A stretch of 64,000 bases of DNA from Gracilariopsis chorda (Eukaryota; Rhodophyta; Florideophyceae; Gracilariales; Gracilariaceae): positions 124,001 to 188,000 of the forward strand of contig NBIV01000081.1 of the NCBI GenBank assembly GCA_003194525.1, in the 5' to 3' direction. Each line of letters starts with the position of its first letter. Positions within the stretch are counted from its first letter, which is position 1. Under the pieces are notes generated by a model that did not search any database, was not told the DNA's origin, and saw only the letters and a program-made list of their open reading frames with translations. Both the position numbers and the translations under genes were made by a program. Positions 46,335 to 60,858 of this stretch are shown piece by piece.

Positions 46335-47005
46335 CAAGGGTTAAGCAGAAAATTGCGCGAGGGGTCTGTTTCTCCGGAGAAGAAAGTTTGTGAGCATTGA
46401 ATACGCGGGTAGGGAAGCTTCCTTGATAGCTCACGATTGTAAAGGCTTTATCGCATGGTAAAGGGTTAAAGGTTTAACCCTTACCCTTCTCTAAGCTGCT
46501 GCGCTCTAAAGTTTACACAGACCCATTCTCCGCCACTTAACCGCACCACAGCCCAAGGCTCGGAAGCATAGAGACTCTGATCGGAGCCTACACGCAAGCG
46601 AGAAGCCGGAGGGGGGGGCGCATCTGACGCAAGGAGGTAAGGGCGATTCAGGGGCAAACGTCAGCGTCGAAACCATCTTACAGTTTGAAGACACTGACAC
46701 GGCGCACCACGGCGCGCGCCGACGAAAGATCAGATGCGTCTCAAACTGGGCGATTTGTCGTGGCCATCTTCGCGAGAATTGTTCTCCCGAGAACCTCGCC
46801 TCTGTTACGTCACGCCCGACGTTCTCCTTCGTCATCATGGCGCGCGCAACGCGCGCGCCATTGCTGCTGTCTTCTTTACCCCAACCCTCTTCTTCGTTCC
46901 GCTTTGGTACCGCAATGCCCACACCAGTCGCCGGCTATTTCAGCCGGTTCACTTCTCCGAACTTCCTCCACCTTCACCCCAACCCACCCGTCACATCGCA
47001 CCAAA
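46335..47005. other. Intergenic with a near-palindrome
   Basis: Contains AAGGGTTAAA-GG-TTTAACCCTT at 46460-46481, which extends outward as GGTAA/TTACC with one bulged base. A GC-rich open frame on the plus strand leads into the adenylation gene but lacks a domain and is read as 5' UTR. Confidence 0.55.
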
Positions 47006-48748
47006 ATGAGCCTCTCCATTTGTTCTCAAAGCCCAGCCCTGGCATCTCTCCCTCCTGCCCATCGGAAACTGTTCTGCCAGTTCTCGCAAGGAGTGGCCAC
47101 AACTCCCTCACATCCCACAATCACAGCTGCAATCGACTATTCCATCAGCCATCACCCAAATCTCATCGCCGCTCACACTCTGCTTGCAGATGGTTCTCTT
47201 CATCCTACCGACCATATTTCCTATGCTACATTGGGCAGACGCTCCGAAAATGTCGCGGCTGCCTTACAAGCACATGGCGTCACTCCCGGCGAATCTGTCT
47301 GTCTGTTTCTTTCCCGCGGTATCGACATGATCGTCTCTATAGTCGCAATACTTCGTATTGGAGCAAATTACGTTCCGCAAGATGCTCGTATCGCGCCACA
47401 TGACCAACTAACTCGAGTTGCCTCGGCTACGAAAGCTCGCATTGTGCTTACCTCCGACGCCCATATCCAAAACCTGCCAACATTCACCCAAGCTCAAGTT
47501 CTCACAGTACGCTCTGCAGAACAGCAAGCCCGTCATCTACCCCCCTTCAAAAACCCCAAACTGCCAGTGCAGCCATCAGCAACATGCTACATCATCTTCA
47601 CATCAGGCACAACAGGCCTTCCCAAGGGGGTCCAAGTAACCCATGGAAATGTCGCAAACGTATTGCTTACCGATCCAATGTCGCTTAACATGCGTCCCGG
47701 AGTACGAGTTTCGCAGATTCTTAGTATTGCCTTTGACATGTGTGCGTGGGAGGTACTTGGATCTCTATCCCATGCCTCAACCTTAATAATTCGTCATCGT
47801 AACATTTCGCACGCCGTCCAACAAGCACAGGTTGTAATATCAACTCCCTCTGTGTTGGGTACCATTGATTCTTCGCGAATGCATCATGTGAAAACTGTGG
47901 CCGTTGCTGGTGAACCTTGCCCAAGAGCGCTCGCCGACGAATGGAGCCAGTTCTGTACTTTTTACAACTCGTGTGGACCTACGGAAGTTACTATTATCAA
48001 CACTGCCAAGAAATGCAGTGTTTCCGATGCTCGTTTTACCATCGGTAAACCCACTCCGAATAATACCGTGTATGTACTTGATCCGCGCACACGGCAACCA
48101 TGCAAAATCGGTCAAGTGGGCGAAATGTGGGCTGGTGGAGACTGCGTATCAAAAGGGTACCTGGACAATGAACAGCTTACGAGGGAGCGTTTTGTGCATG
48201 ACCCCTTTGTTGGTGGCCCGGCACGCATGTATCGCACTGGAGACTTGGGCAGATGGACTACTGATGGAGAGCTTGAACACTTCGGAAGGGTTGATGAACA
48301 AGTGAAGGTGAAAGGTTTTCGCGTTGAACTGGATGGTGTTTCCTCCATTATTGAGAGCAACCCACAAGTCAAGAAGGCTGTTGTACTCAAAGTGAACGAT
48401 GCACTCGTCGCGTTTGTCACACCTTCGCATATCATCCCTCAACAAGTCATGCACACCGTCAAGGATCGTTTGCCGTATTACTGCGTACCCTCTCAGATTC
48501 TTTGCATGGATAAGTTTCCCAGAACTGGAAACGGAAAAGTGGATAAACGAGCTTTGCTGCGTGGATTGGCCCATTCACATCCAGCCGTTCCAGCCAAAAT
48601 TGAAAAGGGTACAAAGAACTTGATGGGAACAGCTGACCTGATGAATAATCCCAGATCTACTTGGATCGTTCAAGCAATCGTTCAAAACTTCTTCGTAATA
48701 TCTAAGTTAGTGAGAAACTTGCTAGCCCTTGCGCGTGACATAGCTTGA
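47006..48748 (+). CDS. Stand-alone NRPS-like adenylation (AMP-binding) protein
   Basis: From the ATG at 47006 (CACCAAAATGAGC context) the protein has 580 residues. Adenylate-forming core motifs are all present: A3 FTSGTTGLPKGV, A5 NSCGPTEVT, A7 YRTGDLGRW, A8 GRVDEQVKVKGFRVE and A10 PRTGNGKVDKR with the catalytic lysine. The style is NRPS adenylation rather than acyl-CoA ligase. There is no carrier, condensation or reductase domain; about 45 residues with a hydrophobic stretch follow (NFFVISKLVRNLLALA) and then stop. It should activate an amino or carboxylic acid as an adenylate; the acceptor is unknown. The frame is open a further 107 codons upstream but that part is not conserved-looking. 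Confidence 0.85.
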   Translation: MSLSICSQSPALASLPPAHRKLFCQFSQGVATTPSHPTITAAIDYSISHHPNLIAAHTLLADGSLHPTDHISYATLGRRSENVAAALQAHGVTPGESVCLFLSRGIDMIVSIVAILRIGANYVPQDARIAPHDQLTRVASATKARIVLTSDAHIQNLPTFTQAQVLTVRSAEQQARHLPPFKNPKLPVQPSATCYIIFTSGTTGLPKGVQVTHGNVANVLLTDPMSLNMRPGVRVSQILSIAFDMCAWEVLGSLSHASTLIIRHRNISHAVQQAQVVISTPSVLGTIDSSRMHHVKTVAVAGEPCPRALADEWSQFCTFYNSCGPTEVTIINTAKKCSVSDARFTIGKPTPNNTVYVLDPRTRQPCKIGQVGEMWAGGDCVSKGYLDNEQLTRERFVHDPFVGGPARMYRTGDLGRWTTDGELEHFGRVDEQVKVKGFRVELDGVSSIIESNPQVKKAVVLKVNDALVAFVTPSHIIPQQVMHTVKDRLPYYCVPSQILCMDKFPRTGNGKVDKRALLRGLAHSHPAVPAKIEKGTKNLMGTADLMNNPRSTWIVQAIVQNFFVISKLVRNLLALARDIA

Positions 48749-49229: not shown

Positions 49230-49234
49230 ATTTA

Positions 49235-49497
49235 GGGGGGGAGGCTGAGTGTACTTGTAGGAAAAACAGTAGCAACTCCACCAATCAAAAGCACGAATTC
49301 ACCCTTGATCAGCGAATGCAGTAGCCCGGGGGACCGCTTCCAACGTGTGCCACGGCATGATTGCCAATCAGCCAATCATAAGTAGGAGTTCACCCCGTCA
49401 CAGCGTCCTGATCCATCTATAACCAATTAAAAAACAACAAGTCATAGCAGTCCACATTCAAACTTGGCAAATCGCGCGCTTTTCGATACTGATAGCA
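49235..49497 (+). repeat. Left terminal inverted repeat of the MULE
   Basis: GGGGGGGAGGCT at the outer end, then ACTTGTAGGAAAAACAGTAG and a long match to the reverse complement of 59666-59928, ending near GATACTGATAGCACC. Confidence 0.88.
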
Positions 49498-49587
49498 CCA
49501 AGCATTTTTATCCACCAAAACACCTTTTTTTGAGCCCCAAAATCTAACAAACTGCCCTCATACAGTGCAAGCCATAAAGATAGGATA

Positions 49588-51782
49588 ACCCTCATAACGG
49601 GGTAATTTGGCAAATGGAACAATTTGGCAAGACATAAGAGCCACACATTGTCCCTGTCAGTTTCGGCTTTATTCAGGTCACTACTGGACTGCTACGTCAT
49701 TGTCCACTCCTTCTGACTCGGTTCTGACTGTTCCACAGTCTAGTAGCGGATGAAGCACAATGCCCGAGTCCATGAGACGCCAGACGGCTCGTCTCAAACG
49801 CAGCAAATTGCAACGAGCCCAAGAGGGAAAGGCTCGTAACCAAGCTTTTCAATTGCTGCAGACGAATGAGAAGCTTTCCAGCATTGTCGCACGCTGTTCT
49901 GTATCCCTCACAACGCTTTACCGCATAAGACGAGCTTGGAAGGAAAAGAAGCAATCACTGTTGCACAAACTTTTGAGTCCTGTAGACTACCATGCAGGAC
50001 GACCATCTGTCTTGAGCACACAAGAAGAAGAAATGATTGTGAAAAGAGTAAAGCATGCCGCCGAAAGAGGCTTTGCATTCGATATCAATCACCTCAAAGA
50101 AGCTATGTCAACTATAGCAGCGGACGGCAGACACAGCTACAAAAACGCTCTCCCATGCGATGACACAATCCGTAGCTTTCGTGCACGCCACCGCGACATC
50201 ACGTACCGAAAGACAGAGAATCACTGCCATCGGTACTTTCTTGGGGAGGACTTAGAACATGTCCACACCCTCGTTCACCACCTGAAAGCTTTGAAACAAA
50301 AACATTCCGACCTGTTCCAAGACCCAAGCCGCATCTGGAACTTGGACGAGACCGCAGTAAGCGCAGATTACGGAAAGCGAGGACGAACTTTCTCCGCATC
50401 CGCTTCTAATTTGGGTGGTAGGCGGCACAATATAAAGGACAATGGAGCCCACCTTACTGCTGTGGTAATTGCCTCAGCATCCGGTCTAGTTGCTCCACCC
50501 TTCTTTGTTGCGTCCGGAAAAAAGGTGATGCCGCGGTGGAAAACCCCGATCCCGAGCAGCGCGAAAGTCCACCTACCAGCCAGTCTACGGTGGTTGACGG
50601 AGAACACCTGGATTCCGGATGGAACCCATATCGCGCTAACGACGAAGGGGTCAATGACAATGGAGATCATGCCCAAACTCATTACGCATTTCAACGAGTT
50701 CTGCCGTAAGTTTGTGACACCTGACAAGCCCGTCCTGCTGCTCCTTGATGGCCATAGCTCCCGTAAAGGTGCCGAGTGGATCCTGTACTGCCATAAATAT
50801 AACATAATTGTTATCCAACTTCCGGCAAATACATCCCATTTTCTGCAACCTTGTGACGCAACCATTAATAAGAAGTTCAAGGAAAGGACAAGGCAGGTCA
50901 GAGATGTGCTGATAAAAACTGGAATGTATAGCAATGCGAACATTGCATTCAAACTTAAGCTGGGTGTTGCAGGATTTCAAGTTCTTACAGCAGACGTCGT
51001 TCAACAGAGCTTCATATCCACCGGCATGTGGCCGATGAATTTTCAATTCTACCAGATGCTTCGCGAGCGGCTATCGATGGAGAAGCGAGTTCCAAACGAG
51101 AATACTGAGCAGCACAAAGAACTGCACATGACATTACGGACAGCCGATGTTGTTATCTATTCGCGGATTCGAGAAATTGTGGAGCGTGAGGACAATGCCA
51201 CGATAGGTGTCGCGTTAGTAGAGCAGACGTTACAGAATAACCGTTCCGCCCATCGTGTCTTGTGGGAAGCTGCACCATTACAGGCACCTGTTTGTCATAT
51301 GCGTTCAAATATGAAAAGCATGTCGGGTGCGCCAGCCGCGGTTTTGTCTGATGTGGGTGTGTTGAAGAATGTGACGAATGGCGGGAGGGCGCAGCGGAGA
51401 TCAAGAACGGTAAAGTATGTTGGGCCAGGCAAGGAAAACATGCAGTTAGCAGGCGGGGATAATGTTGATGGAGCTGGTTTATGGGACGCCACCGATGATA
51501 TTCCACTTCTGACGCTCTGGCGGCAAGAGCGAAATGAAGACGGGTCTTTAGAGGAGCATAATGTAGCGGCGGCCGAAGCCGCCACAGCCCTGTTGGGGCT
51601 CAGCACAAGGTAATCGGCTTGCGATGAGTTGAAGTGGGTGATCGGGGCTTCGCCAAATTTCCCCAGGTTAGGCCTTGGGACAACGTGGCTTCAGAAATCT
51701 CCTGTAAAAAGCGTCCGTTTGAAGCCGTGGAGGACGATTTCTGCCTGCGAAAATTTGTGCCAAATATCCCCGCTGGGAGGGT
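49588..51782 (+). mobile_element. Pogo-like DNA transposon, intact
   Basis: TA at 49586-49587 and 51783-51784 brackets the unit. Inverted ends are ACCCTCATAACGGGG and ACCCTCCCAGCGGGG, continuing as TAATTTGGCA and ATATTTGGCA (about 20 of 25 bases match). One uninterrupted DDE_1 transposase gene fills it. It lies just inside the left MULE repeat, so it inserted into the MULE. Confidence 0.8.
49760..51613 (+). CDS. Pogo/CENP-B-type DDE_1 transposase
   Basis: The 617-residue protein has an N-terminal helix-turn-helix (about 25-60, SSIVARCSVSLTTLYRIRRAW), a CENP-B-type region (about 70-185, with GRPSVLSTQEEEMIVKRV), and the catalytic domain. The first Asp is in IWNLDETAVSADYGKRG, the second in LLLLDGHSSRKG and the third in LQPCDATINKKFK, with 35 residues between the last two. 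The middle part reads LTAVVIASASGLVAPPFFVASGKK, as usual for the family. The C-terminal 200 residues are variable. There is no stop or frameshift, so it may be functional. Confidence 0.93.
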   Translation: MPESMRRQTARLKRSKLQRAQEGKARNQAFQLLQTNEKLSSIVARCSVSLTTLYRIRRAWKEKKQSLLHKLLSPVDYHAGRPSVLSTQEEEMIVKRVKHAAERGFAFDINHLKEAMSTIAADGRHSYKNALPCDDTIRSFRARHRDITYRKTENHCHRYFLGEDLEHVHTLVHHLKALKQKHSDLFQDPSRIWNLDETAVSADYGKRGRTFSASASNLGGRRHNIKDNGAHLTAVVIASASGLVAPPFFVASGKKVMPRWKTPIPSSAKVHLPASLRWLTENTWIPDGTHIALTTKGSMTMEIMPKLITHFNEFCRKFVTPDKPVLLLLDGHSSRKGAEWILYCHKYNIIVIQLPANTSHFLQPCDATINKKFKERTRQVRDVLIKTGMYSNANIAFKLKLGVAGFQVLTADVVQQSFISTGMWPMNFQFYQMLRERLSMEKRVPNENTEQHKELHMTLRTADVVIYSRIREIVEREDNATIGVALVEQTLQNNRSAHRVLWEAAPLQAPVCHMRSNMKSMSGAPAAVLSDVGVLKNVTNGGRAQRRSRTVKYVGPGKENMQLAGGDNVDGAGLWDATDDIPLLTLWRQERNEDGSLEEHNVAAAEAATALLGLSTR

Positions 51783-51784
51783 TA

Positions 51785-53298
51785 CCCCATATTTTGTGGC
51801 GTCTTGGGTTCAAAATAGGGCCATGTATAAAACAAAAGCGGTGAAAAGGACTCTTTTCAGAAGACCAATCAGGCCCAACAGGCCGTTTTATAAAAAACTA
51901 AAAACGTCTGGATGTTATTCCGATTCAGCTACTACAGAGGGTGTCATATCTATAAGACATTTCCACCTTACGCCACCTTACAGAGCCCATACTGTGCTTC
52001 TAATAGTCTGTCTTGGCTCCCCGCTTCTCTAGGACCTGTACGCAACGCTTTGGCATGCTGCAAAGAAGCTTGTAGATGTAGGATGAGTCAATTTCGTCCC
52101 ATGATTCTAACACACAAGAATTGAGCTCTGACAGGTTAGAAAACTGACGAGCATTTGCATAAACCCTCCTTGCAAGTATGCCCCACATGTTTTCTATCGG
52201 ATTAAGGTCCGGAATCTTGGAAGGCCACTCCATAACGGTGATGTTTTGGTCTTTAAACCACTTTTTGGTGAGCTTTGCGCGATGGATAGAAGCATTATCT
52301 TGCTGAAACGTCCAACAACCAGCAAAGGTCTTCTCTGCAAACGGCAGCAAGTAATCCTCCAGTGTCTTGCAGTACTTCTTGGCATCCTGGTTACCACTTG
52401 TGATTGCTAAAACAGATTTACCACCTTCTGCAAAAGCACCCCATACCATCAAAGAAGAACCCCTTGCCTGCCTGCGAGAAAATATCCTTTCTTCCTTCCT
52501 TATGTCATGCCAGTAGTACGCGAGACGGTCCGGGCCATCCAAATTAAACTTCTTTTCATCAGAGAATACAACCTCGGCCCATTCCTGTGGCCTCCACTGG
52601 ACATGAGCTGAAGCCCATTCCATCCTCTTGGCACGGTGCAAAGGGGTGATGTTGGGGCATGGCAGCATCTTCTTGTAATCGAGAACGGGTGCTTTCTGCA
52701 ACATGCGCTGGGTAGTACGAAGGGACGCCGAGAGTTCCAGAGTCTTTCGAAGAGCACGGGCGCTCATATTGCCCTTGGCAGCCTCGCGGATGAGGCGTCG
52801 TTTCGCGACCACCGCGAGTTCCGATGGCCTACCGGAACTTTTTTTCACTCCGTAGGTGTCTTTGAGGCGGATACAGTTGCTTACAACGCTGCGCGACCTT
52901 CCCAGCGCCTTAGCGATGGATGAGACGCTTTCTTTGACACTGTGCAGAGCCGTGACCATTCCTTGTTCTTTCTCAGACAAACGGAGTCCCTTTCCCATGA
53001 TTGTGGTGGTTTTTGTGCTTGCGGGGGAACCCTCGGCTTGCTACAGAGCCATTGTTACCATATAAGGGCTTTGGCGCGTCATTACAGTGCGTATCTGTTT
53101 GCTTTTGCCGCGTAAAGCGGAAATGTCTTATAGATATGACACCCACTGTAGTAGCCGAATCGGAATAACATCCAGACGTTTTTAGTTGTTTATAAAACGG
53201 CCTGTTGGGCCTGATTGGTCTTCTGAAAAGAGTCCTTTTCACCGCTTTTGTTTTATACGTGGCCCTATTTTGAACCCAAGACGCCACAAAATATGGGG
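51785..53298 (-). mobile_element. Tc1-type transposon with about 187 bp inverted repeats
   Basis: CCCCATATTTTGTGGCGTC at 51785 is matched inverted at 53298. The arms run about 187 bp (51785-51971 and 53112-53298) with only a few differences. The left end abuts the TA that also ends the pogo element. On the right the expected TA reads TG, perhaps a mutation. The unit is about 1.5 kb with one intact transposase gene. Confidence 0.9.
52000..52998 (-). CDS. Tc1-family DD34E transposase, intact
   Basis: 332 residues from the ATG at 52998. The N-terminal paired helix-turn-helix region includes VSSIAKALGRSRSVVSNCIR and SSGRPSEL. Catalytic residues: VFSDEKKFNLDG, TFQQDNASIHRA, and WPSKIPDLNPIENMWG. 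The last Asp and Glu are separated by 34 residues, the Tc1 DD34E arrangement. All are present and the frame is unbroken, so the element may be or recently was active. Confidence 0.95.
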   Translation of the reverse strand: MGKGLRLSEKEQGMVTALHSVKESVSSIAKALGRSRSVVSNCIRLKDTYGVKKSSGRPSELAVVAKRRLIREAAKGNMSARALRKTLELSASLRTTQRMLQKAPVLDYKKMLPCPNITPLHRAKRMEWASAHVQWRPQEWAEVVFSDEKKFNLDGPDRLAYYWHDIRKEERIFSRRQARGSSLMVWGAFAEGGKSVLAITSGNQDAKKYCKTLEDYLLPFAEKTFAGCWTFQQDNASIHRAKLTKKWFKDQNITVMEWPSKIPDLNPIENMWGILARRVYANARQFSNLSELNSCVLESWDEIDSSYIYKLLCSMPKRCVQVLEKRGAKTDY

Positions 53299-53861
53299 TG
53301 TCCTATCTTTATGGCGTGCACTGTATCACTGCTTTCTTCCCGATTAGTGCCAATCTTCAATTCAGCGCTTTGCTCTGATTTCTTGTCCACTTTGCGCTCT
53401 TTTAACTCCCGTATCGAATTGCATACGACTATGCTCTAAAATAACCCTATGCTAGCTACTCTGCGATTACATAGGTAGCCTTTTGCACTGGTTTCACTCA
53501 TATCTGCATATCTTTTTTGAAAAACTATCTGAAACTGCACATTTGCTGTTTTATATCCTATTGCATGTTTCATATATGTTTTCTATGCCGTGCAACGTTT
53601 ATGTTTCCTTAATATGGCTCGGTAGCTCTACTAGGCGCTACAGTTAGACCTGTGTTGTATTCATCCTGGGTTGCTTGGTAGATTAAACAAAGCCTTAATA
53701 CCAGCATAGTGCTTATCATTGCTTTGCCCGTACGTTAATTTCTTTTCTACACTCGCTACGAGCCTGAAATGCACTTTAACGATCATTGTGTACCAATGTG
53801 CTCTTAATGTACATTTGCAATACATAATTCGTATATTGGTACTGGTTGTCTCAGAGAAGCT
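53299..53861. other. MULE interior without recognised coding
   Basis: About 560 bp between the Tc1 element and the first MULE-associated frame. AT-rich, no feature seen. Confidence 0.4.
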
Positions 53862-54935
53862 ATGTCAGACTGTAAGCGAAGAGATCGAGTGGTTATCCAG
53901 GGTTTGAAGAAACACACGCAATTGGAGCTCCCACAGGACGAAGAAGCGCAGATGTTTCGATATCATTCTGTCAATATGTTTATTGCAGCGCTTGTGTTGA
54001 ACTACTGCAACCACTCAGCATTTAATGTTGTCATTCGCAATCGTCGATCGGGTGAGTACATGTGTAATGTGCTCATTACTGCTGGTATTAAAGACATCGA
54101 AAAAGAACCTGGAGTGGTTCTTTGAACATGAAATACCGAGGCCTACCTCATGGAATTGTCCAAATCGTTCCACTCCAAGAAAAACTCAGCTGGGTTCAAA
54201 TTGGAACATCTGGAAACTTTTGTTGGACCATTTCGGTATTCATTTTTTGGAGATAATTTAGAGACACATACTGTGGTCGTACCAATGAATATTAGGAGAG
54301 CTCACTGGAGAATGATAGTCGGAAGAAGATCTTGGAGTAATGTCAGCACGATGGAGACAAGAACTGTGTATTTTGGAGACAGTATCGGCTGGACTTGCCC
54401 TGATTACGTATTGAGATTCTTTAAGGCAGTTTTTGACCACGGGTTTCCGCAGAATTCTGTTAAAAGGACAACATCGAAACAGAACTACATGTTAGACATT
54501 TTGGGGCTCGAAAAACAACAAGGTTCTCACAGTTGTGATGCCAAAGTCATTGCAGGCTTTGCATCCTTTACGGAAAGCACAAACATCTTCCAAAAGGAAC
54601 ATTTTTTGATGGGTACGACAAAAATCGTACGGATCAGTACCGCTAGATGTCTGCAAAAAATACTTTTTAAATATCGCCCTCAGATCAGAGAAAAATCGTT
54701 CGGAAAGTGTCTCTGAAGGTGACGTTGCTTTTCTTCAATACGAAAAATGGAAGAATCGTCTTGCGTTTCGACGAGAACAGGCTCGTCAGAGCAAAAGCGT
54801 AAATGAGTATACAGACGCCGCAGCTGAAGAGGTTGTGCCACCTCCGCATTATAGTGCCATAGATTTGGCAATGAGCGCATACGAGAAGAGAGACAGGGCT
54901 CAAATACCAGTCTCAATTAATGATCATGAATAATG
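53862..54935 (+). pseudogene. Ulp1-type (C48) cysteine protease frame carried by the MULE
   Basis: The best part is 54150-54716: HW in VVPMNIRRAHWRMIVG, the Asp in TVYFGDSIGW, then Gln and Cys in KQQGSHSCDAKVIAGF. This is the order His-Asp-Gln-Cys of Ulp1/SENP proteases. A preceding frame (53862-54125) and a following one (to a stop near 54933, with EKWKNRLAFRREQARQSK) are in other frames, so the gene is broken by frameshifts or has unseen introns. Ulp1-like genes riding in plant MULEs are known; here it would be part of the same element. Confidence 0.65.
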
Positions 54936-55930
54936 TCAAGCACGAGCCCAGAAATTGAGAGCAGTTTCGGAGAATCAGGATGGTTGGTAGAACTGTGACT
55001 TTCCGGAGAATTCAGTTTTTCGTAGCCGTCGCAAAGTGATACGATTCATGGAAAGCGCATTGTAAATAGGTAGTATTATTGAGGATATCGTTACGGAGGC
55101 AGCCATGTCATCAAACTTTAAAGTGCCTGGGATAACAAATTTGAGCTCCTCTTCGCAGCAATAAGGGAGCCAGACTCCCAGTTGGGATACTACTAAAGAT
55201 GTAGAAGATCTCGTTGAAGAAGTGTCAGATCTGCCAGATTTTATCTATAATTTAAACCTCTCTGGACAATTTTTGGGGTACATAGACTCCGCATCATATC
55301 CCGAAGTTGCGTATGACGAAGTACACTAGTAAAAGCCCAACTGCGCTGCATAAAGCACAAGCCACCAGTGTCATGTCGGAGATGCATCATCGCAAAACTA
55401 CAAGCAAAGTCGATGAAGTGGGTTTTGTCGTTCTCGGGGACCTACAGTCTTACGTTGCAGCCAGTCGCACAAGAGCTCTGTGAGGATAGGTACATCGTAT
55501 TTTTGTGGTCAATTCTCTGTCGTCTAAAGACCTGGAAGAGAGAACAGAAATTGGAGGATACCTCTTGGTGTTAGGATGTCCTGGCAAGAACGCTGATTTT
55601 GTTTCAGCAGAGAAATAGTTTTACCGTTGTGTAGAATCTTTTATCATGTATAGGCAAAAAGGTGGGGGCAGTCAATGATAATGAGGTGCGAACGAAGAGT
55701 GAACAGGTCTCAATCTGCTTAGACCGTAGGCGGAAACAGAAGAACTACATTTATTGAAAGAGGATGAAGTGGATTTGGTACAGGAGCCGCACTAAAGGCC
55801 ACCCGTAAAATACTTCATCTCTGATGATCACGATTCCTTCCCTACCTTGTTTCATGATCGTGATGAGAATGCTGCCGCAGACATTCGTATGGTCGAGAAT
55901 ATGGAGTGAAGTAGAAAGGAAGATGAAGCA
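54936..55930 (+). pseudogene. Fragmentary coding between Ulp1 and MULE transposase
   Basis: 55105-55329 reads MSSNFKVPGITNL ... SYPEVAYDEVH with one in-frame stop near 55159, and 55374 onward reads MSEMHHRKTTSKVDEVGFV. These look like decayed acidic protein segments. No family recognised. Confidence 0.35.
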
Positions 55931-58900
55931 GTGGTTATGGGAGATACACAGTGCTTGTGCTGTGAGGCTGTACAGTCATTTATTTCTAAAATGGGAGGAA
56001 ACGCCGCAGGACTGCAGGTCATTAAGGAGGTCCAGTTCATTTCTGACTGCTTCGGGTATGATGTACTCGTACGGGATTCAGGTTATAATAAGCAAATCAC
56101 TAGTAGTATTAATGCTGATGCTTGTAATGGTATGGATAGCGATGAATATGATGCTGAAGTGATTGGGGGTGAAGAGGTTCTGAAGGCATACTTGAGATGC
56201 GTGGAGCATAACATGGCTCCAAAGTGTCCTTTCCTTTGCGTAATCAGAATTAAGAATTCTATCTCGAGGCGAACTGGCTGTGGTGATTTGGTAAAAGTGT
56301 ACTGTTGTGAAATGAAAAACGGGTCGCACAACCACCCACCAAACCTGATCAAGGTGATAAGCCATTTGTCCCGTTAGCTTCAAAGAGATGCATTTGAAAT
56401 GAAATCGGAGCTGCACATTCAACCCAGAGACATTGTCTCTGTGCTGGAAAGAAAGTATAGTATCCCGATCAACACAATAGCGCTGCACAGTAGGCTTTCA
56501 GATTCATCACGTGTTGAGGCGCCAAAGCAGCACGAGTGCATGCTGCTCTGCAGAGAGCTCATGCACCTACGCGATGCTAACAGTCACAACAAGGTTTTTA
56601 TAAGTGCCAATGGACAAGGGGTGATGGATTCACCATCGTGGGCGTTTGCAGATTGGCTGGAAGATTATGCTAGGTATGGCGTGGTGCCAGGTATCAGCAT
56701 TGATTGCAAAGCCATCTCTAACAGGTTTGGTCTTTCGTTGTTTAACATCAATGGTAGGTCTAATGATGGTTATATCCCGACCTTTTTCATGGGTTTCGTT
56801 TTCTGTGAGACAGAGGAGAGCTTGACACAGATACTACGTGAATTCTAAGCCGCAGTACTGATCTCACCATCCATGATAGCCATGTACTAAAGTGTGGCGT
56901 GCATTAACGCAGTCCAGAAAGACTTTCCACTTTCGTACATAGCTCTGGATGAATGGCACTTGAACCAAAAAGAGGCTGGCAACTGTGCGTCAAGGTGTGC
57001 AAAAATTGGACGAAAGCAATGGATTAGAGATCTATCAACGGATCGTTTTAAACTTCGTCAGTCTATGTCAGAAGAGGGTTTCTTGGTTCGGCGAGAGCAG
57101 CATGGGAGTAAGTACTTCTACAGCCTTCAGCAAGATCCCCCATCGTCGAACAAATTCTTGTACCACAAGAACCGCAAAATGATTATTGCGGTGTATGGCA
57201 ATCAATCCGTCCCCCATCCTTTCCTTTTCTGGGAGCTGGGTATACAGAGAGCTCTAACTCAGTATACCGTCATCATATTTTCGGTAGATGTGTTCCAATA
57301 TGGAAAGTTCTAACTGAGATGCATACTGTAACCATGAAGCTGGAGGAAAAAAGAAGTGATGCAAGAACGAGGGCACTGAAAAGTCAGAACTGGACATTTT
57401 GTAATATATCCAACTGCCAGTTGCCAGTTACCACGAAGGCACTAGAAGCACTGATATCTGATTACACCTCATCTTGTCTGTTAAAGTCCGTTGAGGTGAG
57501 CGTGGAGCCGTGGGGACCGTTTGCGGTTCTCGAAGTCACAATCAAACCGATCTCCAAGACTGAGTGGCCAGATGAAAAGATGCAAAAGAGACAACGTTCC
57601 GATCGAGGTGTTATGTTTACTATCCTGTTCTCTGGAATAGATGGGACTTCAAACACAACAAAAGAATTGCTACAGAGCAGTTCGAGGTATAAACTGTATA
57701 TTTCAAAGCTTCTTAACCATCAAATGCCCTCTGCAACTTGTACCGTGGCCTGTTCTTGCTTGCAGCATTCCATCTCAGGTTTCCCTTGCCGCCAAATTGT
57801 CCGCTGTGCAGTTATATGTAGTAGAATACTGGTCCAAAGGCGAAGTGGGGAAGTAGTACCTACTATGGGTAGCGGGGGCAGAGTACCAGCCACTAGGGTG
57901 ACAATCCAATGGGTCTAGTTGTGTCGTGGGCACTTTCTGACGTGCAGGCGCAATGGGGGGAGGTTATCTGAGGTCCCTACAGGTAGGGCGCACTCGTAAC
58001 GATGGCTTGGAAGCCTGCGTCCGCTGGAAGTTTGGGGGCGACTAGAGGACGGAAGTGGTGCTGGCCTTTTCTCCTCAGTGGCCGGCTGCAGTCGAGCAAA
58101 CTATTACAGTCGGCGAGGCGCTCTAGACCACCGCCAACTACGACTAAGATATTAAATAAAATACTACATTATTCTACAGTGCACTGTACTGCAGTGCCAG
58201 CCCCACCGGAGGTCACACTTCAGATCACCATTATCTCTGACCCACGTGGCTGATATTGACACGTGTAATGCTCTTGTTCTTGGTCCACCACTTCGGTACT
58301 CCAGCTTACCAGTGATCTGACCTTACGGGTATTGTACTGTATTCTATACCCGGAACTGGATCTTTTTTCACCTATCCTGGCTGGTGTGCTAGGTTCCCGT
58401 ATTTGGATGGAGTCCTTTTTTGAACCGTACTGGAAGCATAACACCGAGGAAATCTCACATGCATATCGTACTGGCCTGCGCAAAAACACTGCAAGAAATC
58501 ATGCTGACTCTGCTTCGCTAAGTACCGTAAGCGCAATAGAATTTCCATGAGATCGAGAAATCGTCGATGAAGTGAATATCGAAAAAGAAGTGGACCATGA
58601 AGCCAACACATACCTCTCTTGGTCTGACAGAAAAGCGTTATATCACAAAATGCATCGCCTAGCATCGTCACTGGGTCCAATAGCCTTAAATAGCTTGAAG
58701 AAGATGATGCAAAATGCCATTAAGGTTCTTTCCCACGGCGAAATACAAGCAGAAATACCTGATAACTTCCTAAAGTCGAATGCAGTACGGACATTGATTC
58801 TTGCTGGGCAAAGTAGAACTCAAGACAAACTCCTCACAACCCTTAAGAACCCTAACTATGGTCTCACAAAGAGCGAAAGGCGGAAGCAAGGGTGCATGGA

Positions 58901-59108
58901 ATCATCCAAATCAAAACGATCATTGCATCAGAATACTAAGAAGCCACAATCCATCTCATTGAACCCTGCTAACCCGTCTCAAGAAAGTTCTCAAGGAGCT
59001 GGAGGCTCATTCCGATCCATGTCACAAAGCTCAGTGCTTCACTTAAACATTTCAAGAATAATGACAGACCGTGCGATTGACAAAGGTCTTAGAATCCTTG
59101 ACAAGTAA
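55931..59108 (+). pseudogene. Mutator-like (MULE) transposase, broken by in-frame stops
   Basis: One frame continues from 55931 to 57313 with in-frame stops TAG at 56376 and TAA at 56846, 56891 and 57311. It starts with a WRKY/FAR1-like zinc segment (VYCCEMKNGSHNHPP). The catalytic core follows: ISIDCKAISNRFGLSLFNINGRSNDGYIP with the first Asp, the FCETEESLTQILREF block, then ACINAVQKDFPLSYIALDEWHLNQ as in the MULE second motif. In another frame, 57319-57918 ends in a SWIM-like zinc finger (CSCLQHSISGFPC). 58572-59108 is the C-terminal tail. The 57920-58560 segment has no recognisable coding and may be an insertion. Not functional. Confidence 0.8.
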
Positions 59109-59665
59109 CCATCACAACGAATTATATAAAGTAATTTTCAACAGGTTCTGCGAGCGGTTACCAATCGTATATCGTAGGAATGATGACTAAAAACCAGATG
59201 GATAGGCGGCTTGAAGCAAAGCAATGAAGCTAGGATGAGTAGAATAGACTTGCAGGAACGGCGCAGCTCGGAGCGAACTGATGAGGCGAGGAAGAGTAGA
59301 AACCGGGCACAAGGATGGAGTAGAGCAAATCATAGAAGCACAAATTAGTAGAAAACTGAAGGAGCAAAAGGATTATTCAGAACGGAGGGGTGACACAGCA
59401 ATGAGTTCAACGCAGCCACGAAGAAATTGCAGAGCGAAACATTGAAGCAGCGCAAAGAGAAAGGATAACAAGAGCATTTTTGACCGTGACCAAGCAAGAC
59501 GCATGAATAGAAAGTGAACGAAAGAGCAGCGTGTATGCAAGTTCGACCTGGAACCTGGGTCGAAAGCCCTAAATAGTGAAGCAAAGATTGGTTGAGTGGC
59601 GGAAAGAAGATGGAGATCTACGCGCTGGGTAGAGCTGAGAAGCACATGGGCGGAGAAAAAAGGTT
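59109..59665. other. MULE 3' interior
   Basis: About 560 bp of purine-rich sequence with no coding family, up to the right inverted repeat. Confidence 0.4.
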
Positions 59666-59928
59666 AGTGCCATCAGTACCGAAAAGCGCGCGTTTTGCCA
59701 AGTTTAAATGTGGAATGCTATGAATTCGTGTTTTTTAATTGGTTGCAGATGGATAAGGACACCGTGACGGGGTGAAATCTTACTTGTGATTAGCTGATTT
59801 GCAATCATGCCGTGGAACACGTTGGAAGCGGTCCCTCAGGCTTCTACATTCCCTGATCAAGGATCAACTCGTGCTTGTGATTGGTGGAGTTGCTACTGTT
59901 TTTCCTACAAGTATATTTAGCCTCCCCC
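59666..59928 (-). repeat. Right terminal inverted repeat of the MULE
   Basis: Reverse complement reads GGGGGAGGCT, then ACTTGTAGGAAAAACAGTAG and continues to match 49235-49497, ending inside near CGGTACTGATGGCAC. Confidence 0.88.
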
Positions 59929-60858
59929 ATTTAAAGAAAGGCTATTCTGAGTAGCCGATAGCCTTTGCCGAATTACATCCCCACAGATATCTGGTGGCGT
60001 TTTTTTTCTTCCGCTGCATAGACAACTCTACGAACACTGTAAACGATGGTGATGTTTGTATTACCGAGTGAAAACGTAGGTAATGCTATTTCTGAGTGGA
60101 GTATTCTGTGATGCTTTGACTACTGCCGACGTAAATGTGAGTACCTACCTCCACGTTGGTGTCGCCGGGACAGCGAAAGTTGTACAAAGGGGCAAGTAGA
60201 GAAGACCTGACTTCTCTTGTCTAAGATCCGGGATGCGAGTGCGGTCCGTGCATAGATCCCGTAAACGGGGAACCTGCGGTGCACCCAACCTAGGCTAAGA
60301 CGGATGTTGGATGGGCTTTCTTTCTTTCAATTGGAGTCTTGGCAATCGGGGGAGCCTCAATGCATAGGTTTGACGTAATATCTAAGGATATAAGCTCCAG
60401 CGGTGGCGGTCCTCATTTGTTGGGGAGGATCTCGTTATACGGCCAGGGGGTAGACCTGGAAACAGCATACGGCAGTCATTAATTGTCACTTCAGCGGATC
60501 TTCTCGTGAGCCGCCGCTGTCTGTGTTTGGTGTGATGCGTGCCTCTGGTCCTTTAAATCGCCGCATTGGCATGGCCCAAGACGTGTACTTAATCAGTGGC
60601 TTCGGGAACACTAGAATGGCAAGAATACACGAGAGAGTTAGAAAGAGGGTCAGCAGGCGTGGGTGTCACGTCTGTGCCGGCTTCTTGTTAACTATTGCAG
60701 CAATTTACCAAAGTGGAAACAGTTGTTTCCGCAAGAAGCACCAAGATTCAAACTGATACAGTTTGAATCGTGTGGTAGCGCACGCAATGCACACGAAACC
60801 TACGCAGTCGCAAGGTGGGCTTTCAGCAGAAGCGCGCAATAGAACAAGAGAATAAATA
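59929..60858. other. Leader-like segment before the unusual RT element
   Basis: About 930 bp with no recognised gene. It has a poly-T run near 60000 and short inverted repeats (for example CCCGT/ACGGG near 60260). It could be the 5' untranslated part of the element at 60.9-63.3 kb. Confidence 0.35.

Follow-up and report, generated by a model that had tools for sequence, protein, structure and literature searches.

The 64,000-nucleotide stretch of DNA analysed here (hereafter the window; contig NBIV01000081.1, positions 124,001 to 188,000) contains a nest of transposons at 49235-59928, the outermost of which is a Mutator-like element (MULE) lying on the forward strand, recognised by its inverted ends and by an interior that recurs elsewhere in the genome. 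Inside it are the remnant of one long MULE gene that begins with an Ulp1-type peptidase part, a Tc1 element, a pogo-type element lodged in the Tc1 element, and a solo long terminal repeat (LTR) derived from a Gypsy-like retrotransposon. As a locus it is an unremarkable nest of transposons, some dead and some recent; these inserted separately, and no sign was seen of the whole moving as a unit. Very probably, a MULE with one fused gene came first, Tc1 entered it afterwards, the pogo-type element then entered Tc1, and the LTR arrived separately. The one feature for which we found no description is the N-terminal Ulp1 fusion; MULEs with long terminal inverted repeats (TIRs) are already listed for Rhodophyta in the accessible text of PMC6446971.

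The host element and its fused gene

Self-comparison of the window shows inverted arms 10.1 kb apart and 87% alike. The left TIR lies at 49237-49516 on the forward strand and its inverted partner at 59649-59928 on the reverse strand, each of 280 nt with 244/280 positions identical, which bears out the inverted ends of about 263 bp described in the original prediction and lengthens them slightly. The ends start GGGGG(GG)AGGCT, with seven G at the left end and five at the right. A search of the 91.3-Mb genome containing the window with the left arm gave 24 matches, 16 of which form eight facing pairs spaced about 5-24 kb apart (C81, which is the window, C87, C35, C335, C201, C374, C94 and C248), the other eight being single. 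When one stretch was fetched for each of the 15 other loci, the window-type interior was present at 13 (7/7 paired and 6/8 single-ended); it was not found in the stretches fetched at L036 and L037. The ends therefore co-occur and enclose the same interior at most loci, and the refuting condition set in the original prediction does not count against the element. Identity among the copies is about 70-90%, and those on C374 and C201, which have common flanks, look like duplicates of one insertion.

The assignment to MULEs, already made in the original prediction, holds because of the MULE domain and exact target-site duplications in other copies. The Pfam MULE domain (PF10551, cut-off 27.6 bits) scores 38.1 bits in L025 and 29.2 bits in L038, and at least 111 MULE-domain matches occur in the genome. 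Target duplications of MULEs measure 8-11 bp, mostly 9 bp. Comparison of edge 9-mers gave exact 9-bp duplications at four other copies (C335, C94, C384 and C63), 7/9 at C35, and 6/9 at C87 after a one-base shift (2/9 without it), with the exact end within the G-run picked by eye, which favours such matches. The copy on C374, which has the flanks of C201, was left out of this scoring. The outer 120 bp of L035 and of C384 align with a score of 54 against 23 for the best of 500 shuffles, and the window right end resembles the C384 end by a small margin (35 against 29 for the best shuffle).

At L033 (G000:C87:89401-99300), a retroelement whose gag-pol frames are long (RVT_1, 109.6 bits) has expanded another MULE copy to about 23.5 kb. 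A distant subfamily, L039-L042 (on C403, C672, C623 and C155), is about 71% alike, and its four loci carry identical flanking bases; given these common flanks, it probably multiplied within a larger repeat.

The structure of the gene is clearest in a relative at C384:36019-43900, whose TIRs of about 375-390 bp are 98% alike (those of C63 likewise) and which encodes a single 1702-aa frame. Its N-terminal part matches Peptidase_C48 (PF02902) at 23.4 bits, above the cut-off of 20.7, and its C-terminal part matches MULE at 40.4 bits; Peptidase_C48 also exceeds its cut-off in C33 (22.7 bits) and C206 (26.3 bits), and several relatives have open frames of 1700-1900 codons for the fused Ulp1-MULE gene, one open frame reaching 1914 aa. 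Aligned to the C384 protein, the window remnant falls into six collinear pieces between residues 76 and 1660; it has 11 in-frame stops and changes frame five times, once at the LTR. On the forward strand these pieces comprise the Ulp1-type peptidase part at 53982-54674 (C384 residues 76-311), a linker region defined by alignment to the C384 protein at 54943-55613 (residues 410-651), a zinc-finger-like region, the MULE DDE domain and part of a SWIM-like region at 55937-57840 (residues 858-1479), and, beyond the LTR, the C-terminal part at 58329-58919 (residues 1465-1660). Since the remnant is collinear with a single frame in C384, the Ulp1-type frame (54132-54716) and the broken transposase, both correctly noticed in the original prediction and given there as separate items, are pieces of one broken gene.

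This copy is dead. By eye, the second catalytic Asp position of its MULE domain is a Tyr, followed by a stop. The longest MULE-gene frame in the 16 fetched family stretches scanned is at most 325 aa, and the window family accordingly looks dead as well.

Among the best-scoring candidates listed genome-wide (140 Ulp1 and 141 MULE matches), 90/140 Ulp1 matches are followed on the same strand by a listed MULE match no more than 6 kb downstream, and the corresponding controls give 1/140 on the opposite strand and 2/140 on the wrong side. The PDB sequence search gave no match for the L034 Ulp1 piece and nothing meaningful for the C384 C-terminal part; for the N-terminal part of C384 it gave only ChlaDub2, whose E values of 0.064 and 0.088 are too weak to be considered. 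Neither NCBIfam on the MULE gene nor Pfam on the window frames, with stops replaced by X, returned anything useful, and a predicted structure of the 194-aa Ulp1-like frame of the window had a mean predicted local distance difference test score (pLDDT) of 36 and was not used.

From these observations, a MULE with inverted ends of about 280 bp and one long gene would have inserted in a red-algal chromosome and decayed there. The gene would have encoded a single transposase, with an N-terminal Ulp1-type cysteine peptidase followed by zinc-finger-like regions, the MULE DDE domain and a SWIM-like finger. The ends, the gene remnant and the relatives are seen directly, and a cut-and-paste mode of movement is what we infer from them.

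Evidence against and alternative readings

Several observations weigh against this account. The MULE domain of the window scores 27.0 bits, below the cut-off of 27.6, and has two stops inside. SWIM in C384 is likewise below its cut-off (11.6 versus 19.6 bits), the CxC...CxH pattern being read by eye. The Ulp1 part of C190 and the window Ulp1 piece have no Pfam match, and the L034 piece has no Peptidase_C48 match. The candidate catalytic Cys is lost in 4/17 Ulp1 pieces, one of them within an otherwise open 1789-aa frame. At the edges of the window element the 9-mers match at only 3/9 positions, and ATTTA is common to both sides only at an offset; C248 (2/9) and C201 (1/9) also lack a 9-bp duplication.

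The edges leave some room for a chimeric window element, in which recombination joined two MULE copies; this would explain the absent 9-bp duplication. In addition to the poor 9-mer match, the G-runs at the two ends are of unequal length, and the TIRs of the window differ by 13%, compared with about 2% in C384 and C63. Still, ATTTA does occur on both outer sides (49230-49234 and 59929-59933), as the original prediction had it, and a 5-bp match at offsets 0-2 is expected in 0.85% of random pairs. It is a match of only 5 bp, against the 9 bp of the duplications in other copies of the family. Eroded edges would look the same as those of a chimera, and clean duplications are missing in other old copies too. 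We therefore regard the chimera as unlikely and a single, decayed MULE as the preferred origin.

A different doubt concerns the peptidase, which might be a captured passenger useless to the element, the status that many transduplicated sequences of plant MULEs are assumed to have. According to the accessible text of PMC2528002 and PMC13317346, plant MULEs do carry ULP sequences that were captured, and these can face either way. We compared 17 aligned Ulp1 parts, consisting of 15 genome matches without stops and the stop-free pieces of the window and L034, with the catalytic positions assigned by eye. The candidate H is retained in 16/17, D in 15/17, Q in 16/17 and C in 13/17, and all four are present in the window piece. 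Where the Cys is replaced in these stop-free pieces, the residue is Tyr in L100 (C190), Phe in L097 (C247) and L102 (C299), and Ser in L106 (C82).

Ratios of nonsynonymous to synonymous substitution rates (dN/dS) were computed for 18 pairs of Ulp1 parts, of which five were saturated. Between better separated copies the values are 0.21-0.33: 0.23, 0.26 and 0.33 for C384 versus C59, C295 and C247, 0.21 for C82 versus both C33 and C299, 0.27 for C33-C299, and 0.31, near saturation, for C384-C206. Several close pairs are higher, namely 0.59 for C59-C295 and 0.48, 0.47 and 0.66 for C206 versus C54, C100 and C165, and two nearly identical pairs with very few changes (C33-C265 and C206-C60) exceed 2. 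These values are consistent with purifying selection on the Ulp1 part between families and decay within families.

The lost Cys residues and the higher ratios in close pairs are what a useless passenger would show. However, the Ulp1 part is in frame within one long open reading frame (ORF) and at the same place in the majority of the matches listed, its candidate catalytic residues are mostly retained, and the ratios between better separated copies are low; a mere passenger thus seems to us quite improbable. What Ulp1 does in plant MULEs is described as unknown in the accessible part of a review (PMC13317346). In the preferred reading, in which the peptidase belongs to the transposase, the predicted enzyme would probably strip the transposase, or chromatin proteins of the host, of SUMO or ubiquitin, aiding transposition or escape from silencing. 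More broadly, and with somewhat less than even confidence, we propose that a large MULE lineage of this red alga has one long transposase with a conserved N-terminal Ulp1-type peptidase, which the lineage would have gained before its radiation and selection would have maintained as a working part of transposition or silencing escape. The open-frame fused copies would make it possible to test if transposition depends on a deSUMOylating or deubiquitinating enzyme carried by the transposon itself.

Three guests and their order

The first guest block spans 49561-53325, including a TA duplication at each end (49561-49562 and 53324-53325), and is missing in 8/8 other MULE copies read at this place (L025, L026, L027, L028, L029, L034, L035 and L038). 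It consists of a Tc1 element on the reverse strand (49563-53323, about 1564 bp once the pogo-type element is removed), with a right TIR at 53110-53323 and a left TIR divided into 49563-49587 and 51785-51973. Its transposase frame at 52000-53040, also on the reverse strand, is 346 aa from stop to stop and matches DDE_3 at 73 bits, with a DD34E arrangement (34 residues from D to E). Within the left TIR, the 2195-bp pogo-type element lies on the forward strand at 49588-51782, between TA dinucleotides at 49586-49587 and 51783-51784, and carries an intact 619-aa transposase frame at 49754-51613 on the same strand (DDE_1, 53 bits). The original prediction of two intact guests, each with its own ends, is right as to the two frames, but the left TIR of Tc1 is split by the pogo-type element.

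Other copies in the genome fix the limits of both elements. Five other Tc1 copies are listed as full-length (96-97% identical), and all five are bounded by TA and CAGTGC...GCACTG and TA, with TA at 10/10 ends, and read unbroken through GATAGGA into CCCC at both ends. Ten other pogo-type copies are full length (98-100% at the amino-acid level), eight of them without stops; in the six that were read, the left end is TA followed by ACCCTCATA in 6/6 and the right end is GAGGGT followed by TA in 5/6, the stretch fetched for the copy on C237 not showing that end. Because the other Tc1 and pogo copies are bounded in this way, the outer bases previously assigned to pogo belong to the ends of Tc1, and because the pogo-type element sits at a TA within the left repeat of Tc1, it inserted after Tc1. 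Read from the ends of these copies, the order of insertion is MULE, then Tc1, then pogo. This overturns the order MULE, pogo, Tc1 of the original prediction, a nesting that was convincing from a single sequence and was reversed by other copies.

It is barely credible that a pogo element spanning 49560-53326 entered the MULE first and that Tc1 then inserted near its right end: the arms at 49560-49591 and 53295-53326 are 91% complementary and resemble the ends of one element around inner Tc1 arms, but those outer bases occur at 10/10 ends of 5/5 other Tc1 copies, the pogo ends read (six left, six right) all lack them, and pogo copies end ACCCTC...GAGGGT with TA. A pogo-Tc1 junction at 53299/53300, with TA changed to TG as the original order would require, was considered and rejected on the ends of the other copies. 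With MULE, Tc1 and pogo in that order, Tc1 would have entered the MULE near its left end, at a TA, and the pogo-type element at a TA within the left inverted repeat of that Tc1. Identity between copies is highest for pogo, then Tc1, then MULE, which agrees with this order but dates families, not insertions. Both guests are otherwise like known elements (DDE_3, DD34E and TA for Tc1; DDE_1 and TA for pogo) and show nothing unusual. Elsewhere, a DDE_1 (pogo-type) frame at L036:625-1754, in two pieces of which the first scores 33.4 bits, adjoins a lone MULE TIR.

The third guest, missed by the original prediction, lies at 57817-58341 and is edged by TTATA and TTCTA, one mismatch apart. Where copies could be aligned to the left and right of it, which holds for eight (L025-L030, L033 and L038), all of them continue across 57817/58342 without the insert. 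When 40 of 288 candidates were scored, 39 other matches were listed at 83-87%. Same-strand pairs 8.8-10.8 kb apart occur on C321, C172, C228 and C11, and the pair on C172 encloses a reverse transcriptase (RT; 106 bits) and an integrase, RT first, which is the Gypsy-like order. The other copies read start TGTAG and finish TACTACA (4/4), the end of the window copy being altered (GTACTGTA), and the copy on C90 has CAGCT on both sides. On these grounds we call the insert a solo LTR. An LTR retrotransposon would have inserted in the MULE gene at any time after the MULE itself and shrunk to this remnant. A short nonautonomous element of 524 bp was considered instead and rejected on the 8.8-10.8 kb pairs, the TG...CA ends, and the RT and integrase.

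Known elements and the neighbourhood

The nearest described elements are MULE-Cc groups 36 (Jittery sub-group) and 38, which the accessible text of PMC6446971 places in Rhodophyta with TIRs of 192-640 bp, one ORF and a SWIM finger, and with a 9-bp duplication for group 38 and "various inserts, potentially host derived" in group 36. The window family has the red-algal host, long TIRs and single ORF in common with them; its SWIM-like region, below the profile cut-off, recalls their SWIM finger, and the exact 9-bp duplications at four other copies recall that of group 38. The main text of that source, as far as accessible, mentions no Ulp or protease, and the group 36 inserts could include Ulp1. 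The suggestion in the original prediction that long-TIR MULEs with this gene content are little described thus holds for the peptidase and not for the long-TIR red-algal MULEs as such.

A MULE transposase and an Ulp1-type peptidase are combined in one element, as here, in Kaonashi and in grapevine, melon and rice ULP MULEs (accessible text of PMC2528002 and PMC13317346). There, however, ULP either follows downstream of the transposase ORF and can face both ways, as in grapevine, or belongs to another gene, whereas here it is N-terminal and in the same ORF. Ginger1 also has Ulp1 joined to its transposase, but with a Gypsy-like integrase and a C-terminal Ulp1 (accessible part of PMC2836005). The same source states that hydra and lancelet Mutator elements encode Ulp1 and, in a figure, also aligns Ulp1 of Mutator transposases; a similar fusion may therefore be known in hydra or lancelet Mutator proteins. 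The accessible main text of PMC2725143 contains neither Ulp nor protease. An N-terminal Ulp1-MULE fusion was not found described in the accessible literature searched, a search that covered neither supplements nor Repbase.

The genome has seven phycobilisome-linker matches, several of them on contigs where MULE matches occur as well (C12, C60, C144 and C427). Phycobilisome linkers occur in glaucophytes too. The matches support a red-algal host, as the original prediction had proposed from the window. Just to the left of the transposon nest, at 46628-48748, lies an open 706-codon frame for an AMP-binding enzyme (207 bits).

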